Source: a virus. From it: a DNA stretch of 24,492 bases. A program made the position numbers and the translations under genes. Positions 5,397 to 18,946 of the stretch are shown one piece after another. The first letter of the stretch is position 1. Every line of letters starts with the position of its first letter. Location: positions 1 through 24,492 of IMG/VR virus record IMGVR_UViG_3300042567_001342; one strand, written 5' to 3'. Under the pieces are notes generated by a model. It did not search any database, was not told the origin of the DNA, and worked only from the letters and a program-made list of their open reading frames with translations.

Positions 5397-5751
5397 ATAC
5401 GACTTTTATAAAACAAGTGGAGGCGACTGGTTTGTTGACATTCCTAAATGGGAAGGTGATATAGCCGAACTTCAAATGGTAATGGGAGCAGATCAGTTTC
5501 TCGATATTTTATCAGAAGGTGATGAAAGATTTGCAGTTACTTTATCAACTGAAAAATTTACAGGTAGTGATTGTCTTTTTAAAATAAGAGAAGGCGATTT
5601 AAAAGGTCCAGAATTCGGAACGGGAGCATGGTATATACTTCCTTCATATAAAGGAATTTCATTTGACCATAACATGTGGTTATGTGATGTTACTAAATGG
5701 GTATTTGGAGATTTTCCAGAAGAAATTTACTTTTCTAGAATCAATTGGTGA
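5380..5751 (+). CDS. Conserved-looking phage protein, unknown function
   Basis: The product is 123 aa from ATG 5380 (ATG 5386 is an alternative), overlapping the end of the dehydrogenase gene by 17 bases. It is acidic and rich in Trp, Phe and Asp, with segments GGDWFVDIPKWEGD, ELQMVMGADQFLD and FGTGAWYILPSY. It reads like a compact beta-rich domain. I cannot name a family with confidence. Its stop overlaps the next start (GTGA), so it is co-translated with the DUF4326 gene. Confidence 0.75.
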   Translation: MNMVIKYDFYKTSGGDWFVDIPKWEGDIAELQMVMGADQFLDILSEGDERFAVTLSTEKFTGSDCLFKIREGDLKGPEFGTGAWYILPSYKGISFDHNMWLCDVTKWVFGDFPEEIYFSRINW

Positions 5752-6059
5752 AAACTCGAGTAGTACATTGTAAAAAGGAACATTTCGATGTTTATATTGG
5801 AAGAGGTATTACCAGTGGAGAAAAATCAAAGTGGGGAAATCCATATTCTCATAAAGATGGAACTCTTGCTGAATTTAAAGTAGCTTCAAGAAGAGAAGCT
5901 ATGGAAAAGTTTGAGGAGTATTTATTAAAGAATAAAGATTTAATGAATTCTCTCTATGAGCTAAAAGGAAAGACTCTTGGATGTTGGTGTAAACCGAAGT
6001 CATGTCACGGAGACATTTTAGCAAAATGGGCCGATGGAATTCAAAAAAATCTTTTTTGA
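5748..6059 (+). CDS. DUF4326-family protein
   Basis: The start is GTG 5748 in a GTGA overlap, giving 103 aa. The order VVHCKK..FDVYIGRG, SKWGNPYSHKDGT, ASRREAME.FEEYL, LKGKTLGCWCKPKSCHGDIL is the signature of DUF4326, a family common in phages. Two clustered Cys, another Cys and a His near the C-terminus (CWCKPKSCHGD) suggest metal binding. The molecular function is not established. The next gene begins 11 bases downstream behind a TGATATATAA element. Confidence 0.82.
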   Translation: MKTRVVHCKKEHFDVYIGRGITSGEKSKWGNPYSHKDGTLAEFKVASRREAMEKFEEYLLKNKDLMNSLYELKGKTLGCWCKPKSCHGDILAKWADGIQKNLF

Positions 6060-10144: not shown

Positions 10145-10882
10145 ATGCCACAAATTTATCGCGTAGGAGGTTGTGTAAGAGATGAATTTCTCGGATTAGA
10201 TTCCAAAGATATTGATTTTACTTTTGTTCTTGACGATCTTAGAGGAACTGTTGAAGACGGATTTAGCAGAATGGATCAGTGGATGACGGAAGGAGGTTTT
10301 GAAATATTTCTAAGAACTCCTGAAATGTTCACTATCAGAGCAAAGTTTCCGAAGGACCATGAAAACGCAGGTTTAGTCGCCGATTTTGTAATGGCGAGAA
10401 AAGAAACAGGTTACGTTGAAGGAACTAGAAGACCGATACTCCAGCTAGGAACTCTTGAAGATGACCTTATCAGAAGAGACTTTACAGTCAATGCTATGGC
10501 AATCGCTGAAGACGGAACTCTTATTGATTTATTTAACGGTAGAGAAGATCTTAAAAGAAAGACATTGAGAACTCCACTTCCAGCAGAACGGACTATGATG
10601 GACGATCCTTTGAGATTCTTGAGAGCTTTAAGATTCTCAATTACTAAAGGATTTGATATTGATGGCGATATTTTTAAGGCGATGATGCAACCTGACATCA
10701 AAGAAAAACTTCATCAAACAGTGAGTGCTGAAAGAATTAGAGATGAAGTTTTTAAAATGATGAAACATGATACGGTAAAAACTCTTAGAATAATTCAGAA
10801 TGTAGATAATGACTTTATTCCAGGATTTACAGGACTTATATTTGATAGAGGCCTTTGGTTAAAACCGACTTTCGAAAAGTAA
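10145..10882 (+). CDS. CCA-adding enzyme / tRNA nucleotidyltransferase, class II, short
   Basis: The 245-aa protein carries the class II nucleotidyltransferase motifs in order: GGCVRD (residues 8-13), catalytic DIDF (Asp22, Asp24), RRDFTVNAMA (~110-119), DLFNGREDL (~128-136), DDPLRFLRALRF (~153-164) and ERIRDE (~196-201). These enzymes add CCA to tRNA 3' ends. The C-terminal body/tail domains are short compared with the usual 400 or so residues. Most tRNAs in this window do not encode CCA, so the enzyme would fit their maturation or repair of host-damaged ends. Poly(A) polymerases share the head domain, but the EDxxR-like region and small size favour a tRNA role. Confidence 0.88.
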   Translation: MPQIYRVGGCVRDEFLGLDSKDIDFTFVLDDLRGTVEDGFSRMDQWMTEGGFEIFLRTPEMFTIRAKFPKDHENAGLVADFVMARKETGYVEGTRRPILQLGTLEDDLIRRDFTVNAMAIAEDGTLIDLFNGREDLKRKTLRTPLPAERTMMDDPLRFLRALRFSITKGFDIDGDIFKAMMQPDIKEKLHQTVSAERIRDEVFKMMKHDTVKTLRIIQNVDNDFIPGFTGLIFDRGLWLKPTFEK

Positions 10883-11949: not shown

Positions 11950-12246
11950 ATGACAATTAACGATTTAAAACTTACAGATCTTGAAAAAACGGTTTTAGAA
12001 AACCTTATCAACAATCTTTATGCAGAACCTGGATTCTCAGACGTAGATGCAAACGATATCTCAAAGCAAACTAAAATTCCAACCAAATCAATCAGAGGAG
12101 TTCTATCTTCTTTAGTAAAAAAAGAAATTATTTCTCTTCATGAAACCGAAACTTACGGAGTAGATAAACAGTACGTTATCATTTATCTTAATGAAAAGTT
12201 TTGGTATCTTCACCCAACATGGAGTAAGGAGATATCAAATGCATAA
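11950..12246 (+). CDS. Winged-helix DNA-binding protein
   Basis: The 98-aa product has LTDLEKTVLENLINNLY, then VDANDISKQTKIPTKSIRGVLSSLVKKEII and a hairpin wing (TYGVDKQYVIIYL). This helix-turn-helix-wing order is typical of MarR/DeoR-like domains; with no other domain it could be a small repressor for its own operon. The next ORF's start lies just before its stop. Confidence 0.75.
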   Translation: MTINDLKLTDLEKTVLENLINNLYAEPGFSDVDANDISKQTKIPTKSIRGVLSSLVKKEIISLHETETYGVDKQYVIIYLNEKFWYLHPTWSKEISNA

Positions 12247-12556
12247 GTTTTACCACGCAACAGCTATTGAGAATATCCCTTCTATTATGGAGAAGGGAAT
12301 TCTCCCAACATTCGGAGAAGTTTATCTTACAGATTCTATTGAATCAGCAACGCGCTGGATGGGATTTCGATTAGTTGGACAAACCCGAATAATGGCAGTA
12401 ATCGAAGTAAAGGCTAAAGAAGAAACTTTAGTAGAAGGTACTGATCATTCACCTTTAATGGTACAGCTTTTTGGAGTAGGAAAGTCTTTAGTTTCTCATA
12501 AACGTATACCAAAAAGCAGAATCGGAAAAGTTCATTATTTTAAATTAGGAGAATAA
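12239..12556 (+). CDS. ADP-ribosyltransferase-fold protein (DarT/Tpt1-like)
   Basis: The start is ATG 12239, preceded by a rare good Shine-Dalgarno (TAAGGAGAT); it overlaps the winged-helix gene by 8 bases. The product is 105 aa. It opens HKFYHATAIENIPSIMEKGILP, matching the YHAT...I..I...GI.P start of ADP-ribosyltransferase folds such as DarT, Tpt1/KptA and PARP-like proteins, then VYLTDSIESATRW. It lacks a clear catalytic Glu that I can place. It may use or bind NAD. It sits at the start of a block rich in NAD and nucleotide genes. Function is inferred from fold cues only. Confidence 0.7.
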   Translation: MHKFYHATAIENIPSIMEKGILPTFGEVYLTDSIESATRWMGFRLVGQTRIMAVIEVKAKEETLVEGTDHSPLMVQLFGVGKSLVSHKRIPKSRIGKVHYFKLGE

Positions 12557-12593: not shown

Positions 12594-13139
12594 ATGGAAT
12601 ACACAAATCATTCAGGAGGAGCAAAAGGATCAGATTCGGAATGGGACCGTATTGGAAGAGAATTCGGAATCACAGAACATCGTCATTACTGGCATTCAGG
12701 TTCCGCAAAGCCACCTTTAGCAAATATAGAAATAACAGAAGCTCAACTTGAAGAAGGATGGGAAAGAGTAAAGTATGCCAATAAAGTTTTAAAAAGAAAA
12801 CCACACGCTTACAAATCTCTCCTGTCTCGAAATTGGTTTCAGGTAAAAAATTCAGAAGCCGTATTTGCAATTGGATTTTTAGATTTCGATCCACGTGGAG
12901 TTGCAACTGGAACAGACGGTGGAACCGGATGGGCAGTACAAATGGCCATTGATTCAGGAAAATCTGTTTTTGTTTTTGATCAATCTAAAGATCATTGGTA
13001 CAAATGGAATCGCTTTATGTTTATACCTTGTGAAACTCCAACTCTCACAAAGAATTTTGCAGGAATAGGAACTCGTAAAATTGGAGAAAATGGAAAAAGA
13101 GCAATCAGAGAAGTTTATAAATTAACCAAACAATCATGA
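12594..13139 (+). CDS. SLOG/YspA-like nucleotide-binding protein
   Basis: The 181-aa protein begins with SGGAKGSDSEWDRIGREFG, the Gly-rich loop and helix pattern of SLOG (DprA/LOG-like) domains, and later has FAIGFL, GTGWAVQMAIDSGKSVFVFD, the strand-helix-strand expected for a Rossmannoid core. SLOG proteins bind or process nucleotide-derived ligands. Known phage anti-defence proteins can sequester such signals, but nothing here proves that. It overlaps the next gene by ATGA. Confidence 0.75.
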   Translation: MEYTNHSGGAKGSDSEWDRIGREFGITEHRHYWHSGSAKPPLANIEITEAQLEEGWERVKYANKVLKRKPHAYKSLLSRNWFQVKNSEAVFAIGFLDFDPRGVATGTDGGTGWAVQMAIDSGKSVFVFDQSKDHWYKWNRFMFIPCETPTLTKNFAGIGTRKIGENGKRAIREVYKLTKQS

Positions 13140-13419: not shown

Positions 13420-14316
13420 ATGAAAATTCTAAATTTGGTCTATCCTGACCTTTCTGATATTCAATATCAGGTATCCCACTTTCCAGACGGTCAACAATCC
13501 GTTACTCTTACAGATGTACTTAAGAATCCAGAAGTCATTTTAATTAAAAGCAAATTATCTTCCTTTAGACATTTGGAGATTATTATTTGTGCTACAAAAG
13601 CTCTTAAGAATTTAGGCATGAAAGAAATTCATCTATATGTCCCTTATTTTATCGGAGCAAGAAGTGATAGAAGATTTGTAGAAGGAGGAACTCATTATAT
13701 CAAAGAAGTTATTGCTCCAATTATTAATAGCCAAGGATATGAATCCGTTATGGTAGTAGATCCGCATTCAGATGTTTTGGAAGCATGTTTAAATAACTTC
13801 AGAAAAATAAGCAATATAGATCTTGTTAGAACTGCATTCACTGCAATTGACAATACCAATGAAGCTAGAGAAAAAATGGTAATTGTTTCTCCGGATGCAG
13901 GTGCCATGAAAAAAATCTACAATGTCGCAGAGCATTTCAATCATGATAAAATCATTATTGCAGCAAAGCATAGAGACGTTAAATCCGGAAAAATTACTCA
14001 CACTGAAGTTCCGGATCTTAATAAGTACCATCCACATTCTAACTTCGTTATTATCGATGATATTTGCGATGGAGGCAGAACTTTTATCGAAATCGCTAAA
14101 GTTATTGAGGCACACGTATGGCCGCATGATGAGTACTTTAAAGGTAAAATATATCTAATAGTCACTCATGGAATTTTTAGCGCAGGCCTCTATGAGCTTT
14201 CAAAACACTTCGAGCGCATCTTCTGCACAAATTCATACTCCGATATAAAAGCAGAAGAGCTTTCAGAATATACAGTATCTAACGATTTTTTAATGCAAAC
14301 TAATATTTACAAATAA
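13420..14316 (+). CDS. Prs-like PRPP synthetase; candidate ADPR-pyrophosphate synthetase (NARP1 Adps)
   Basis: The 298-aa protein shows Prs-family motifs in order: FPDGQQSVTL (~21-30), VPYFIGARSDRRF (~74-86), VVDPHSD (~112-118), VSPDAGAMKK (~156-165), the PRPP loop VIIDDICDGGRTF (~210-222) and VTHGIFSAG (~248-256). Prs transfers pyrophosphate from ATP to ribose-5-phosphate. A phage relative, Adps, instead pyrophosphorylates ADP-ribose as step one of NAD+ reconstitution. Close pairing with a NAMPT-like gene, with only one ORF between, favours that pathway. Which substrate is used cannot be read from the sequence. Its TAA overlaps the next ATG (TAATG). Confidence 0.85.
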   Translation: MKILNLVYPDLSDIQYQVSHFPDGQQSVTLTDVLKNPEVILIKSKLSSFRHLEIIICATKALKNLGMKEIHLYVPYFIGARSDRRFVEGGTHYIKEVIAPIINSQGYESVMVVDPHSDVLEACLNNFRKISNIDLVRTAFTAIDNTNEAREKMVIVSPDAGAMKKIYNVAEHFNHDKIIIAAKHRDVKSGKITHTEVPDLNKYHPHSNFVIIDDICDGGRTFIEIAKVIEAHVWPHDEYFKGKIYLIVTHGIFSAGLYELSKHFERIFCTNSYSDIKAEELSEYTVSNDFLMQTNIYK

Positions 14317-14885
14317 TGATTAACTGGATCAAAAGAAAACTTGGATTCTCTAAGGTAGAATCTCAAACAGAAACTCCAAATCCTTGGAGCAAATTAGAAG
14401 AAGTTGCAACTCCTGAAAAATGGATAGAAATGTACAAAGACTACCAAGAACTTCTTACTAAAGAAGACGTTGCAAGTTGGTATCAAGAACAATTTAATAT
14501 TTGTAGTAGAGAAAGAGACATTTTAAGATTGGCTTCAAAGACTTCTGATATGCCGATGATTTTTGTTTCTTCTCCGTATTCCCATCCAGACCCAGAAAAA
14601 ATGGAAGAAAATTATAGGACAGTATCCTTCTATTCTTCTAAACTTTGTTCAGAAGGGGTAGTAGCAATATCTCCAATTCTATATGGACATACTACGGTAA
14701 AATTTCATCCTATGCCAACTGATTGGGATTTTTGGAAAAATTTCTGTCTTACTATTTTAGACAAATGTATAGAAATACACGTTTTAAAAATGCCAGGATG
14801 GGAATCTTCTAAAGGAATGAAAGAAGAAACGGAATTCGCAAGAAGAAGAAATATCAAAATAACATATATAGAAGAATATGAATAG
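14316..14885 (+). CDS. DUF1937 / nucleoside deoxyribosyltransferase-fold protein
   Basis: The 189-aa product has a helical N-terminal ~85 residues and a C-terminal DUF1937-like domain: FVSSPYSHPDPEKMEENY, GVVAISPILYGH, DWDFWKNFCLTILDKC, VLKMPGWESSKGMKEE. This is the pattern of small Rossmannoid proteins related to nucleoside 2-deoxyribosyltransferases. It sits between the Prs-like and NAMPT-like genes, overlapping both neighbours by 1 and 8 bases, so it is translated with them and may act on the same metabolites. Confidence 0.8.
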   Translation: MINWIKRKLGFSKVESQTETPNPWSKLEEVATPEKWIEMYKDYQELLTKEDVASWYQEQFNICSRERDILRLASKTSDMPMIFVSSPYSHPDPEKMEENYRTVSFYSSKLCSEGVVAISPILYGHTTVKFHPMPTDWDFWKNFCLTILDKCIEIHVLKMPGWESSKGMKEETEFARRRNIKITYIEEYE

Positions 14886-16410
14886 TATGAATCCGCTGTT
14901 TCTGACCGACGGCTACAAAACAGGTCACCACCAACAGTATCCGGAAGGAACTTCGTTGGTTTACTCTAACTTTACTCCTAGGAGTAATAAGTATGCTCCA
15001 AAAGGATGTCATAAAATAGTTTCATTTGGACAACAAATGGTAATGATGCAAATCCACGAAGCGTTTGAAAATAACTTCTTTAAACGTCCGAAAGAAGAAG
15101 TTATCAGTGAAATGAAAAGAGAATTGTCAATGTACTTAAACACTGACTATGACGTTACTCATTTTGAAAAACTTCACGATCTAGGATATCTACCAATCTA
15201 TGTACAAGCAATCGAAGAAGGAACCAGAGTTCCTATGAAAGTTCCAGTGCTGACAATTTACAACACACATCCAGACTTTTACTGGGTTACAAATTACTTA
15301 GAAACTATTCTTTCTAATTTACTTTGGAAACCAATGACTTCAGCTACGATTGCATACCAATATCGTAAGGTATTGACTAAATGGCAAGAACTAACTGACG
15401 CTGAACGCGGTTGGTTTATCGATTGGCAAGGACATGACTTCTCAATGAGAGGTATGGATTCAGTAGATGCTGTAATTAGTTCTGGTCTTGGTCACTTAAC
15501 AAGTTTCTCCGGATCTGACTCTTTGCCAACTATTTTCGGAGCTCGTAAATTTTATGGAGAAACCGGATTTGTAGCAGGATCTGTAAATGCAACTGAACAT
15601 TCAGTTATGTGCGCAGGAACTAAAGAAGATGAAGTTGGTACTTTTAGAAACTTGATGAAAACTTATCCTACAGGAATTCTTTCTATTGTTTCAGATACTT
15701 GGGATTTATGGAAAGTTTGTACTGAACATATTGTTACTCTTAAAGAAGAGATTTTAGCAAGAGATGGTAAGGTAGTTATTAGACCTGACTCTGGTGATCC
15801 AGTCGATATTATTTGTGGTGCAAGTATTATCAAAACAAATATTCATAATGATAATGATACTGTTGCTTATTTAGGTGGAGTAGCTGAGGTTAATCCTACT
15901 GATGAATATCTAAATAAACCAGAAGTAAAAGGAGTTATTGAATTACTTTGGGATGTATTTGGTGGAACTATCAACGAACAAGGTTACAAAGTTTTAGATT
16001 CTCATATTGGAGCAATCTATGGAGATTCAATTACAATCGAAAGAGCAAATGAAATTTGTTCTAGATTAGAAGCAAAAGGATTTGCAAGTACAAACATTGT
16101 TTTAGGAGTTGGAAGTTTCACATACCAATTTAATACTCGTGACACTTTTGGTTTCGCAATGAAAGCAACCTATGTTGAAGTAGAAGGTGAAGGACGTGAA
16201 ATCTTCAAAAATCCAATCACCGATGATGGTACCAAGAAATCTGCAACCGGACTATTAAGCGTTTGGAAAGACGATAATATGGACATTTTCTTACAGGATA
16301 AATGCACATGGGAAATGGTTAAATCTGGAGAGTTGCAATGCATATATCTAAATGGAACTTTTGAAAATACTACAACGTTGGCAGAAATTAGAGAAAGACT
16401 TAAAAAATAA
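14878..16410 (+). CDS. NAMPT-family nicotinamide transferase; candidate NARP1 Namat
   Basis: The 510-aa protein matches the nicotinamide phosphoribosyltransferase family from end to end: LFLTDGYKTGHHQQYPEGT, FTPRSNKY, KIVSFGQQM, DWQGHDFSMRGM, SGSDSLPTIFG, VAGSVNATEHSVM, IVSDTWDLWKV, RPDSGDP, IYGDSIT, NIVLGVGSFTYQ, GFAMKATYVE. Human NAMPT is 491 aa. NAMPT joins nicotinamide to PRPP to make NMN; the phage homologue Namat joins it to ADP-ribose pyrophosphate to make NAD+ directly. Starts at 14878 or 14887 are both possible. The first ~60 bases are more GC-rich than the rest. The enzyme class is firm; the NAD+-restoring role is inferred from gene pairing. Confidence 0.92.
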   Translation: MNSMNPLFLTDGYKTGHHQQYPEGTSLVYSNFTPRSNKYAPKGCHKIVSFGQQMVMMQIHEAFENNFFKRPKEEVISEMKRELSMYLNTDYDVTHFEKLHDLGYLPIYVQAIEEGTRVPMKVPVLTIYNTHPDFYWVTNYLETILSNLLWKPMTSATIAYQYRKVLTKWQELTDAERGWFIDWQGHDFSMRGMDSVDAVISSGLGHLTSFSGSDSLPTIFGARKFYGETGFVAGSVNATEHSVMCAGTKEDEVGTFRNLMKTYPTGILSIVSDTWDLWKVCTEHIVTLKEEILARDGKVVIRPDSGDPVDIICGASIIKTNIHNDNDTVAYLGGVAEVNPTDEYLNKPEVKGVIELLWDVFGGTINEQGYKVLDSHIGAIYGDSITIERANEICSRLEAKGFASTNIVLGVGSFTYQFNTRDTFGFAMKATYVEVEGEGREIFKNPITDDGTKKSATGLLSVWKDDNMDIFLQDKCTWEMVKSGELQCIYLNGTFENTTTLAEIRERLKK

Positions 16411-16424
16411 ATAGACTAAAAAAT

Positions 16425-16895
16425 ATGCAAGTAATAAAACCTACAAGCGACCAACAAAATATGGAGAATAGAATCTCCGTGTTTTTGGCTGGTTCAATAG
16501 AAATGGGTGTTGCCGAGGACTGGCAAGCTCGAGCCGAAAAGGAATTAATTGATCTTAATGTAACTATATTCAATCCTAGAAGAGACGACTGGGATTCCGA
16601 TTGGACACAAGAGGAATCAAATCCACAATTTAACTATCAGGTAAATTGGGAAATGAACAAACTTGAAGATGCAGATATAATCTTTGTCTATTTCTGTCCA
16701 GATACAAAAAGCCCGATTACAATGATGGAACTTGGAATGCACTGTAGAGATGAAATAATGGTATGTTCGCCTCCAGGATTTTGGAGAAGAGGTAATTTGG
16801 AAATAGTATGTACAAGACACAACATTCCACTTTATGATAATTTCAAAGAGGCCATAGGAGCATTAAGAACAAAGATACATCAATTAAGTAGATGA
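16425..16895 (+). CDS. Nucleoside 2-deoxyribosyltransferase-like protein
   Basis: The 156-aa protein contains VFLAGSIEMGVAEDWQ, NPRRDDWDSDW, FNYQVNWEMNKLEDADII, SPITMMELGM and CSPPGFWRRGNLEIV, the order seen in the nucleoside 2-deoxyribosyltransferase-like family (Nuc_deoxyri_tr2). The Glu in MMELG fits the family's catalytic position. Such enzymes cleave or swap N-glycosidic bonds of nucleotides. Immediately downstream of the NAMPT-like gene, it may process nicotinamide- or ADP-ribose-related products. ATG 16461 is an alternative start. Confidence 0.85.
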   Translation: MQVIKPTSDQQNMENRISVFLAGSIEMGVAEDWQARAEKELIDLNVTIFNPRRDDWDSDWTQEESNPQFNYQVNWEMNKLEDADIIFVYFCPDTKSPITMMELGMHCRDEIMVCSPPGFWRRGNLEIVCTRHNIPLYDNFKEAIGALRTKIHQLSR

Positions 16896-18052: not shown

Positions 18053-18946
18053 ATGAAAGATCAATTAGGCGACAGAATGAAGGACTTCTATGAAGACCGA
18101 ACCCGTTTCAAGTTGGCACGTCGCACCAACACAATCATCCGTATCGACGGAAAAGCCTTTCACACCTATACAAAAGGACTTCAAAGTCCATTTGATGCTG
18201 GGTTGATAGAAGACATGAACAAGACAACTGAGTACTTGTGCCAGAATATCCAAGGTGCAAAATTTGGATACGTTCAATCAGATGAAATCTCAATTCTCAT
18301 CACTGATTACGATGACATTACAACTCATGCTTGGTTTGATGGAAACCTCCAGAAGATGGCAAGCATTGCTGCTTCATTGGCAACATGTGAGTTTAATAGA
18401 CTAAGAACTAAACGTTACCTTCAACATGAGCTTTATTTTAATCATAATGCAGGTTCTGATGAAACCCCTAAAGTAATAATCAATGATCCCGACTTTTTAG
18501 AAAACTGGCCTAGACAAGCACAATTTGATGCTCGTGTTTTTCAAATACCCTATCAGGAAGAAGTGCTTAACTATTTTATCTGGAGACAGCAGGATGCTAC
18601 TCGTAATTCAATTTCTTCAGTTGCTCAGAGCTTATATTCTACAAAGGAACTGCATGGAAAAAAGACCAATGAGATGCAGGAGATGATTTTTCAGAAAGAC
18701 ATTAATTGGAATGACTATACTCCTAGGGAAAAGAGAGGCGGTCTTATTCGTAGAGTCGAGAAAAAGTTTGTTCGAAGGGATACTGACGCAATAGTATCTG
18801 ACAAAACTTCGGTGATTCCTCAGTCTGCAATCTATACTCGTAATGTATGGGAAGCAGATCCAGAAACTCCAATCTTTTCTCAGGATAAAGGTTACCTTCG
18901 CTGGTTAATGCCTAAGGGTCCAGATGATAATTCACCAATGATGTAA
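18053..18946 (+). CDS. Thg1-like tRNA guanylyltransferase (3'-5' RNA polymerase)
   Basis: The 297-aa protein carries the Thg1 signature RIDGKAFHTYTKGLQSPFD (residues 30-48; metal Asp32) and YVQSDEISI (Asp77, Glu78), followed by the conserved helix of the family. Thg1 adds G-1 to tRNA-His in a reverse, 3'-to-5' polymerisation; Thg1-like relatives repair 5'-truncated tRNAs. The phage tRNA-His in this window (22812-22883) already encodes G-1, so a repair role is attractive. The first ~100 bases are GC-richer than the rest, and no recent insertion is evident. Confidence 0.9.
   Translation: MKDQLGDRMKDFYEDRTRFKLARRTNTIIRIDGKAFHTYTKGLQSPFDAGLIEDMNKTTEYLCQNIQGAKFGYVQSDEISILITDYDDITTHAWFDGNLQKMASIAASLATCEFNRLRTKRYLQHELYFNHNAGSDETPKVIINDPDFLENWPRQAQFDARVFQIPYQEEVLNYFIWRQQDATRNSISSVAQSLYSTKELHGKKTNEMQEMIFQKDINWNDYTPREKRGGLIRRVEKKFVRRDTDAIVSDKTSVIPQSAIYTRNVWEADPETPIFSQDKGYLRWLMPKGPDDNSPMM

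Follow-up and report, generated by a model that had tools for sequence, protein, structure and literature searches.

Organisation of the Adps-Namat locus

The DNA analysed (hereafter the window) is the complete 24,492-base IMG/VR virus record IMGVR_UViG_3300042567_001342 from an environmental phage, and is probably a fragment rather than a whole phage genome. Three uninterrupted, co-directional reading frames were found by ORF analysis to form a tightly packed operon on the + strand; these are predicted to encode an ADP-ribose pyrophosphate synthetase of the Prs fold (Adps; positions 13420-14316, 298 amino acids; assigned from Pfam, PHROG and loop sequences), a guest protein of 189 amino acids with a DUF1937/DUF7768/DUF4406 domain (14316-14885; Pfam, PHROG and AF2 fold) and a nicotinamide ADP-ribose transferase of the NAMPT fold (Namat; 14878-16410, 510 amino acids; Pfam, PDB match and tree). 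The first-pass annotation had described a Prs-like and a NAMPT-like gene with a single gene between them in an overlapping operon, and the intact frames and the Pfam and PHROGs matches agree with this description. Adps and the guest gene share one base in the sequence TAATG, while the second junction is an 8-nt overlap if Namat starts at 14878 or a 1-nt gap if it starts at the ATG at 14887; most of the aligned Namat relatives begin at a position matching the latter, which may be the true start.

The operon continues beyond Namat, outside the span originally annotated, with a gene on the same strand (16425-16895, 156 amino acids) which starts 15 nt past the end of Namat and is predicted to encode a PF15891 nucleoside 2-deoxyribosyltransferase-like enzyme (NDT2; Pfam, PDB 4MCJ and AF2). 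Upstream of Adps, also on the + strand, a DprA/SLOG-like protein is encoded at 12594-13139 (PHROG 768, DprA-like, 4e-10; no match in the Pfam search), and it is possible that this gene belongs to the same gene set as Adps. An action on ADPR derivatives has been proposed for the SLOG domains of viruses.

Elsewhere in the window, a small protein beginning YHATAIENIPSIMEKGILP (12191-12556) appeared ART-like by eye, with no Pfam match and a weak match to a PHROG of unknown function, and a DUF4326 protein is encoded at 5745-6059, a family for which processing of phosphates on ADPR products is proposed in PMC9503650. A tRNAHis guanylyltransferase (Thg1; 18053-18946) and a poly(A)-polymerase/CCA head domain (10145-10882), both recurrent near NARP1 in relatives, were found together with 13 tRNA genes, which suggests a tRNA-maintenance gene set. 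Screening of the window with PADLOC returned weak matches only.

The two-enzyme core

The Namat protein matched PF04095 (5e-38) and PF18127 (1e-7) in Pfam and nicotinamide phosphoribosyltransferase in PHROGs (8e-195). Its best matches in the PDB were structures of the Bacillus phage SPbetaL1 Namat (9W5X/9W5W, 2e-158; 53% identity to the window protein), with human NAMPT matched only at about 1e-56. Specificity for ADPR-PP is conferred on Namat by an adenine clamp consisting of a helix motif, GSX-Phi-X-Phi-X-Phi-TRD with aromatic residues at positions 3 and 7, and a loop of which the third residue is Arg, Lys or Tyr and the fourth stacks if the third is Lys or Tyr (PMC12774641). The helix of the window protein reads GSFTYQFNTRD (codons at 16111-16143, + strand), with the aromatics F3 and F7, and the loop reads SNKY (codons for TPRSNKY at 14974-14994, + strand), with Lys third and Tyr fourth, such that every clamp residue described in PMC12774641 is present. 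The corresponding helices are GSFTYQYNTRD in SPbetaL1 and GSYTYQYMTRD in Escherichia phage Bas63, and the motif GSFTYQ[YF]NTRD was kept in all 80 of the nearest viral Namat relatives. The NMN-type controls lacked the clamp (Haemophilus ducreyi NadV, GAQTYQRNTRD; human NAMPT, GSGGGLLQKLTRD; Klebsiella KP27, GMGGGLLQEVTRD). The nicotinamide- and phosphate-contact residues are also kept (GHDFSMRG, SGSD, RPDSGDP and YGD), and the catalytic core is intact (F, S and R of HDFSMR, D of SGSD, RPDSG and YGD).

In a maximum-likelihood tree the window Namat was placed with those of SPbetaL1, Bas63 and other Prs-linked phage proteins (branch support 100/100), while the proteins of Cupriavidus, Vibrio ValKK3, Klebsiella KP27 and Erwinia pEa49 and the NadM-linked protein of Caulobacter Ccr34 fell outside this group. 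The phylogenetic comparison proposed in the first-pass annotation thus separates the protein from cellular and NadM-linked NAMPTs and, as the adenine clamp is also present, it does not fit an NMN-forming NAMPT. One member of the group is instructive: H. ducreyi NadV (48% identical), which we take to be an NMN-forming enzyme, nests beside the SPbetaL1 Namat, yet has lost the clamp aromatics. For this reason clade alone is insufficient for assignment, while clade and clamp together are sufficient, with the motif outweighing the branch. The NadV sequence is that of PDB 9KE8 (see also 9KEO) and is carried on the V-factor plasmid pNAD1. Its nesting without the clamp aromatics looks as if a Namat-type ancestor had given rise to an NMN-former, or the other way round. 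A Namat-like gene of Prevotella phage Lak-B2 has no clamp motif and no Adps within 5 kb. In Vibrio phage ICP1 isolate 2017_Dha_AE, the Namat frame contains a single in-frame stop if it is read from where the homology match begins, and the gene as annotated starts downstream of this stop.

The Adps protein matched PF00156 (2e-7), PF13793 (4e-5, slightly below its cut-off) and PHROG 619, ribose-phosphate pyrophosphokinase (2e-64), and was 19% identical to E. coli Prs, 29% to the SPbetaL1 and Bas63 Adps proteins and 37% to that of phi92. Two loops, DPHSDV (codons 13759-13776) and DDICDGGRTF (14056-14085), distinguish it from E. coli Prs, in which neither is found. The first reads VDPHSDV in the window, LDPHSNV in Bas63 and IEPHSDV in SPbetaL1, compared to VDLHAEQIQG in E. 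coli Prs; the second is exactly that of Bas63, compared to DDMIDTGGTL in E. coli Prs. Conversely, the E. coli loops DLHAxQIQG and DxxDTGGT are both absent from the window protein, and a DLHAxQIQ or DT[GA]GT loop was found in none of 117 Adps-like proteins encoded beside Namats, while PHS[DN]V and DDICDG(G/A) are common to the window, Bas63 and ICP1 pairs. This loop signature is a comparative one derived in the present analysis rather than a published test; as no Adps structure was known to PMC12774641, the ADPR specificity of Adps rests on the shared loops and on linkage. The N-terminal part of PHROG 12872 (547 positions) matches the Adps core and its end matches the Namat C-terminus, a hint that the two proteins are fused in some phage.

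The complete Namat clamp, the fully supported placement in the Namat group and the Bas63-type Adps loops indicate that the locus is very probably a phage NARP1 operon with a two-enzyme core of Adps and Namat, as the first-pass annotation had suggested; at the level of sequence, the outcome named there as refuting, a grouping with ordinary PRPP synthetase and with NMN-forming NAMPT, was not seen. As in the NARP1 systems of SPbetaL1, Bas63 and the bacterial pfNARP1, both enzymes are present, adjacent and co-directional; the clamp, catalytic residues and clade of Namat are shared with SPbetaL1 and Bas63, and the Adps loops are as in Bas63. By homology, Adps would transfer pyrophosphate from ATP onto ADP-ribose to give ADPR-PP, and Namat would join ADPR-PP to nicotinamide to form NAD+ directly, two reactions which have been shown for homologues, with the result that the phage would be able to refill the NAD+ pool from the debris of NAD+-cleaving bacterial defences.

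Ordinary salvage, in which a PRPP synthetase and an NMN-forming NAMPT supply NMN and a host or unseen phage gene completes NAD+ (classic salvage or NARP2-like), is very unlikely: the fold families are identical, NMN-forming activity is retained by Namat in vitro (PMC12774641) and a PF01467 nucleotidyltransferase domain occurs elsewhere in some relatives, but the window has the complete adenine clamp, the Namat-clade placement and the Adps-type loops, and no NMNAT-type or PF01467 domain was found in its 24,492 nt, itself probably a fragment. Given that Namat also forms NMN from PRPP in vitro (PMC12774641), an additional PRPP-based route may nevertheless be open to this pair. The NARP1 core is of an already known kind, and it is the gene between the two enzymes which may be a new part.

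Genes recurring between and around Adps and Namat

The neighbourhood of Namat was surveyed on 80 IMG/VR contigs of up to 289 kb bearing a Namat 67-83% identical to that of the window in the best segment. Adps was found within about 6 kb of Namat on 67 of the 80, several of the remainder being truncated, and for this reason the pairing is not attributed to chance. Within the same distance, genes for PF15891 proteins were present on 53 contigs, macro-domain proteins on 28, HAD hydrolases on 13 and DUF1937 proteins on 2, and gene order differed among the relatives; on twelve contigs longer than 100 kb the PF15891 gene lay 0.8-6.5 kb from Namat. The macro assignment is based on PF01661 (9e-4, below cut-off), ADP-ribose-1''-phosphate phosphatase (7e-5) and PHROG 335, while that of NADAR is clear (PF08719, 3e-48). 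When the middle protein alone was used as the query in the viral scan no relatives were recovered; its relatives were reached through Namat neighbourhoods. A scan with the phi92 Namat gave one locus.

Scans with the SPbetaL1 and ctKR88 Namats were added, giving 152 Namat loci after dereplication at 95% identity. The clamp motif was present at 138 of these and a nearby Adps at 120; at 70 of the 120 at least one gene lies between the two enzymes. Gene content of this slot was compared with that of equally many genes on either side, which together hold twice the positions, using 10,000 shuffles. Macro-domain (17 in the slot versus 3 in the flanks), HAD (16 versus 1) and DUF1937 genes (4 versus 0) were concentrated in the slot, the observed value being reached in 0, 0 and 144 shuffles, respectively. 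PF15891 was only modestly enriched (17 versus 12; 165 shuffles), and NADAR, although recurrent, had no slot preference among the 120 loci (3 versus 3; 3560 shuffles), nor was any significant preference observed for Thg1 or the poly(A) polymerase head domain. Upon dereplication at 85% the signals for macro, HAD and DUF1937 persisted, with PF15891 less firm, while at 75% Namat identity the guest signal faded and HAD alone was still suggestive. On the Namat tree the minimum number of changes was 8 for macro, 10 for PF15891, 12 for HAD and 4 for DUF1937 (from 4 occurrences), which requires repeated gains or losses of the guests. Beyond the known core there is a recurrent, mixed set of guests from ADPR- or nucleotide-processing families.

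Individual loci illustrate this variety. One lineage found by the SPbetaL1 scan (L156) has exactly the order Adps-DUF1937-Namat, and its DUF1937 protein is 39% identical to that of the window. At locus L139 a divergent macro gene is inside the slot; in Pakpunavirus Henu5 a macro gene directly follows Namat, and in Bas63 one lies about 8 kb off. The guest families are also present in phages without NARP1 nearby. In Caulobacter phage CcrBL9 a DUF1937 relative overlaps a ribosylnicotinamide kinase gene, and PF15891 is encoded by jumbo phages, Caulobacter phage CcrColossus among them, without Adps or Namat nearby. Strict membership of PF15891 in NARP1 was rejected because of this distribution and its modest enrichment in the slot.

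Possible roles of the guest proteins

The middle protein of the window matched PF09152 (3e-16), PF24963 and PF14359 in Pfam and PHROG 355, 'nucleoside 2-deoxyribosyltransferase' (1e-19). Its nucleoside-deoxyribosyltransferase-like domain spans residues ~80-186 and is preceded by an extension of 75-80 amino acids which is missing from relatives; the AF2 model was confident in the C-terminal domain only, which was nearest to 1T1J and then to deoxyribosyltransferases. The motifs PY and GW..S.G...E are invariant in the DUF1937 family alignment. The PF15891 protein (Pfam PF15891, 5e-31; PDB 4MCJ, 3e-25) gave an AF2 model (pLDDT 89.5) nearest to 4MCJ, a putative deoxyribosyltransferase, and then to YtoQ, MilB and DNPH1, and Glu102 and most of the fold core are invariant in its family. 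MilB, a CMP N-glycosidase, and DNPH1 are both nucleotide N-glycosidases. Both guests have the nucleoside N-glycosidase fold with a conserved active-site-type Glu, and on account of the model matches and the invariant Glu and motifs N-glycosidic chemistry is likely for both.

Adps and Namat have no gene between them in SPbetaL1 and Bas63, while in the window the DUF1937 gene lies between and the PF15891 gene after. A third gene is likewise inserted in the NARP1 operon of mycobacteriophage DyoEdafos, where the guest RyDEP has been proven to make ADP-ribose for Adps (PMC13232231, preprint). That guest is a ryanodine-domain glycosidase, whereas the middle protein of the window is nucleoside-deoxyribosyltransferase-like (DUF1937/DUF4406) and gave no Pfam match to the ryanodine-receptor R12 domain (PF02026) of RyDEP-type guests. 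The idea of an ADP-ribose-releasing neighbour has also been raised in a remark on a single phage, Pakpunavirus Adele, where a macro-domain gene downstream of NARP1 was proposed to feed it ADP-ribose (PMC12846349); no macro gene was found in the 24,492-nt window, although its relatives have them. The viral NAD+-ADPr network survey PMC9503650, in the text available, describes Macro, NADAR, SLOG, DUF4326 and NadV from large phages, with NadV regarded as NMN-forming and viral DrHyd domains as ADP-ribosyl cyclases only, and contains no DUF1937 or PF15891 link. No paper linking DUF1937 or PF15891 to NARP1 was found among the open-access papers searched, a scope outside which the founding NARP1 paper lies.

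Extending the RyDEP precedent (PMC13232231) and the macro proposal (PMC12846349) to DUF1937 and PF15891, the guests might cleave ADPR-type immune signals or conjugates to free ADP-ribose or the linked base, and the ADP-ribose would then feed Adps as it does in DyoEdafos; by analogy this is possible, but we propose it tentatively. It is equally tentative to regard the Adps-Namat interval as a modular slot and DUF1937/PF15891 as a new class of counter-defence N-glycosidases handing ADP-ribose to NARP1.

The stronger rival to guest feeding, to which we give about an even chance, is that the guests are nucleotide-metabolism enzymes (for instance dNMP or modified-nucleotide N-glycosidases) which stay nearby because all of them are early genes and which play no part in NARP1. 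The placing of MilB and DNPH1 among the characterised enzymes nearest to the PF15891 model, the jumbo phages carrying PF15891 without NARP1 nearby, and the recurrence of Thg1 and the poly(A) polymerase head domain in the same neighbourhood are all consistent with such a role; the occurrence of macro, HAD and DUF1937 genes in the slot and hardly in equal flanks, unlike Thg1 and the poly(A) polymerase head domain, and the repeated changes demanded by the Namat tree argue against it. It is improbable that the guests, with a TIR/SLOG-related fold, act as a sponge or sensor which binds cADPR-type signals without cutting them: most RyDEP homologues tested bind and do not cut, and the DrHyd, SLOG and TIR domains make up a single clade with binding-only members (PMC9503650), but neither the DUF1937 nor the PF15891 family shows any variation in the Glu at the active-site position.

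The core is a clear added member of NARP1 from a large group of environmental phages. Should the guests feed the pathway, NARP1 would be an expandable system which converts immune signals to NAD+, and the slot between Adps and Namat would be a practical place in which to search for unknown anti-Thoeris and anti-ADP-ribosylation enzymes.
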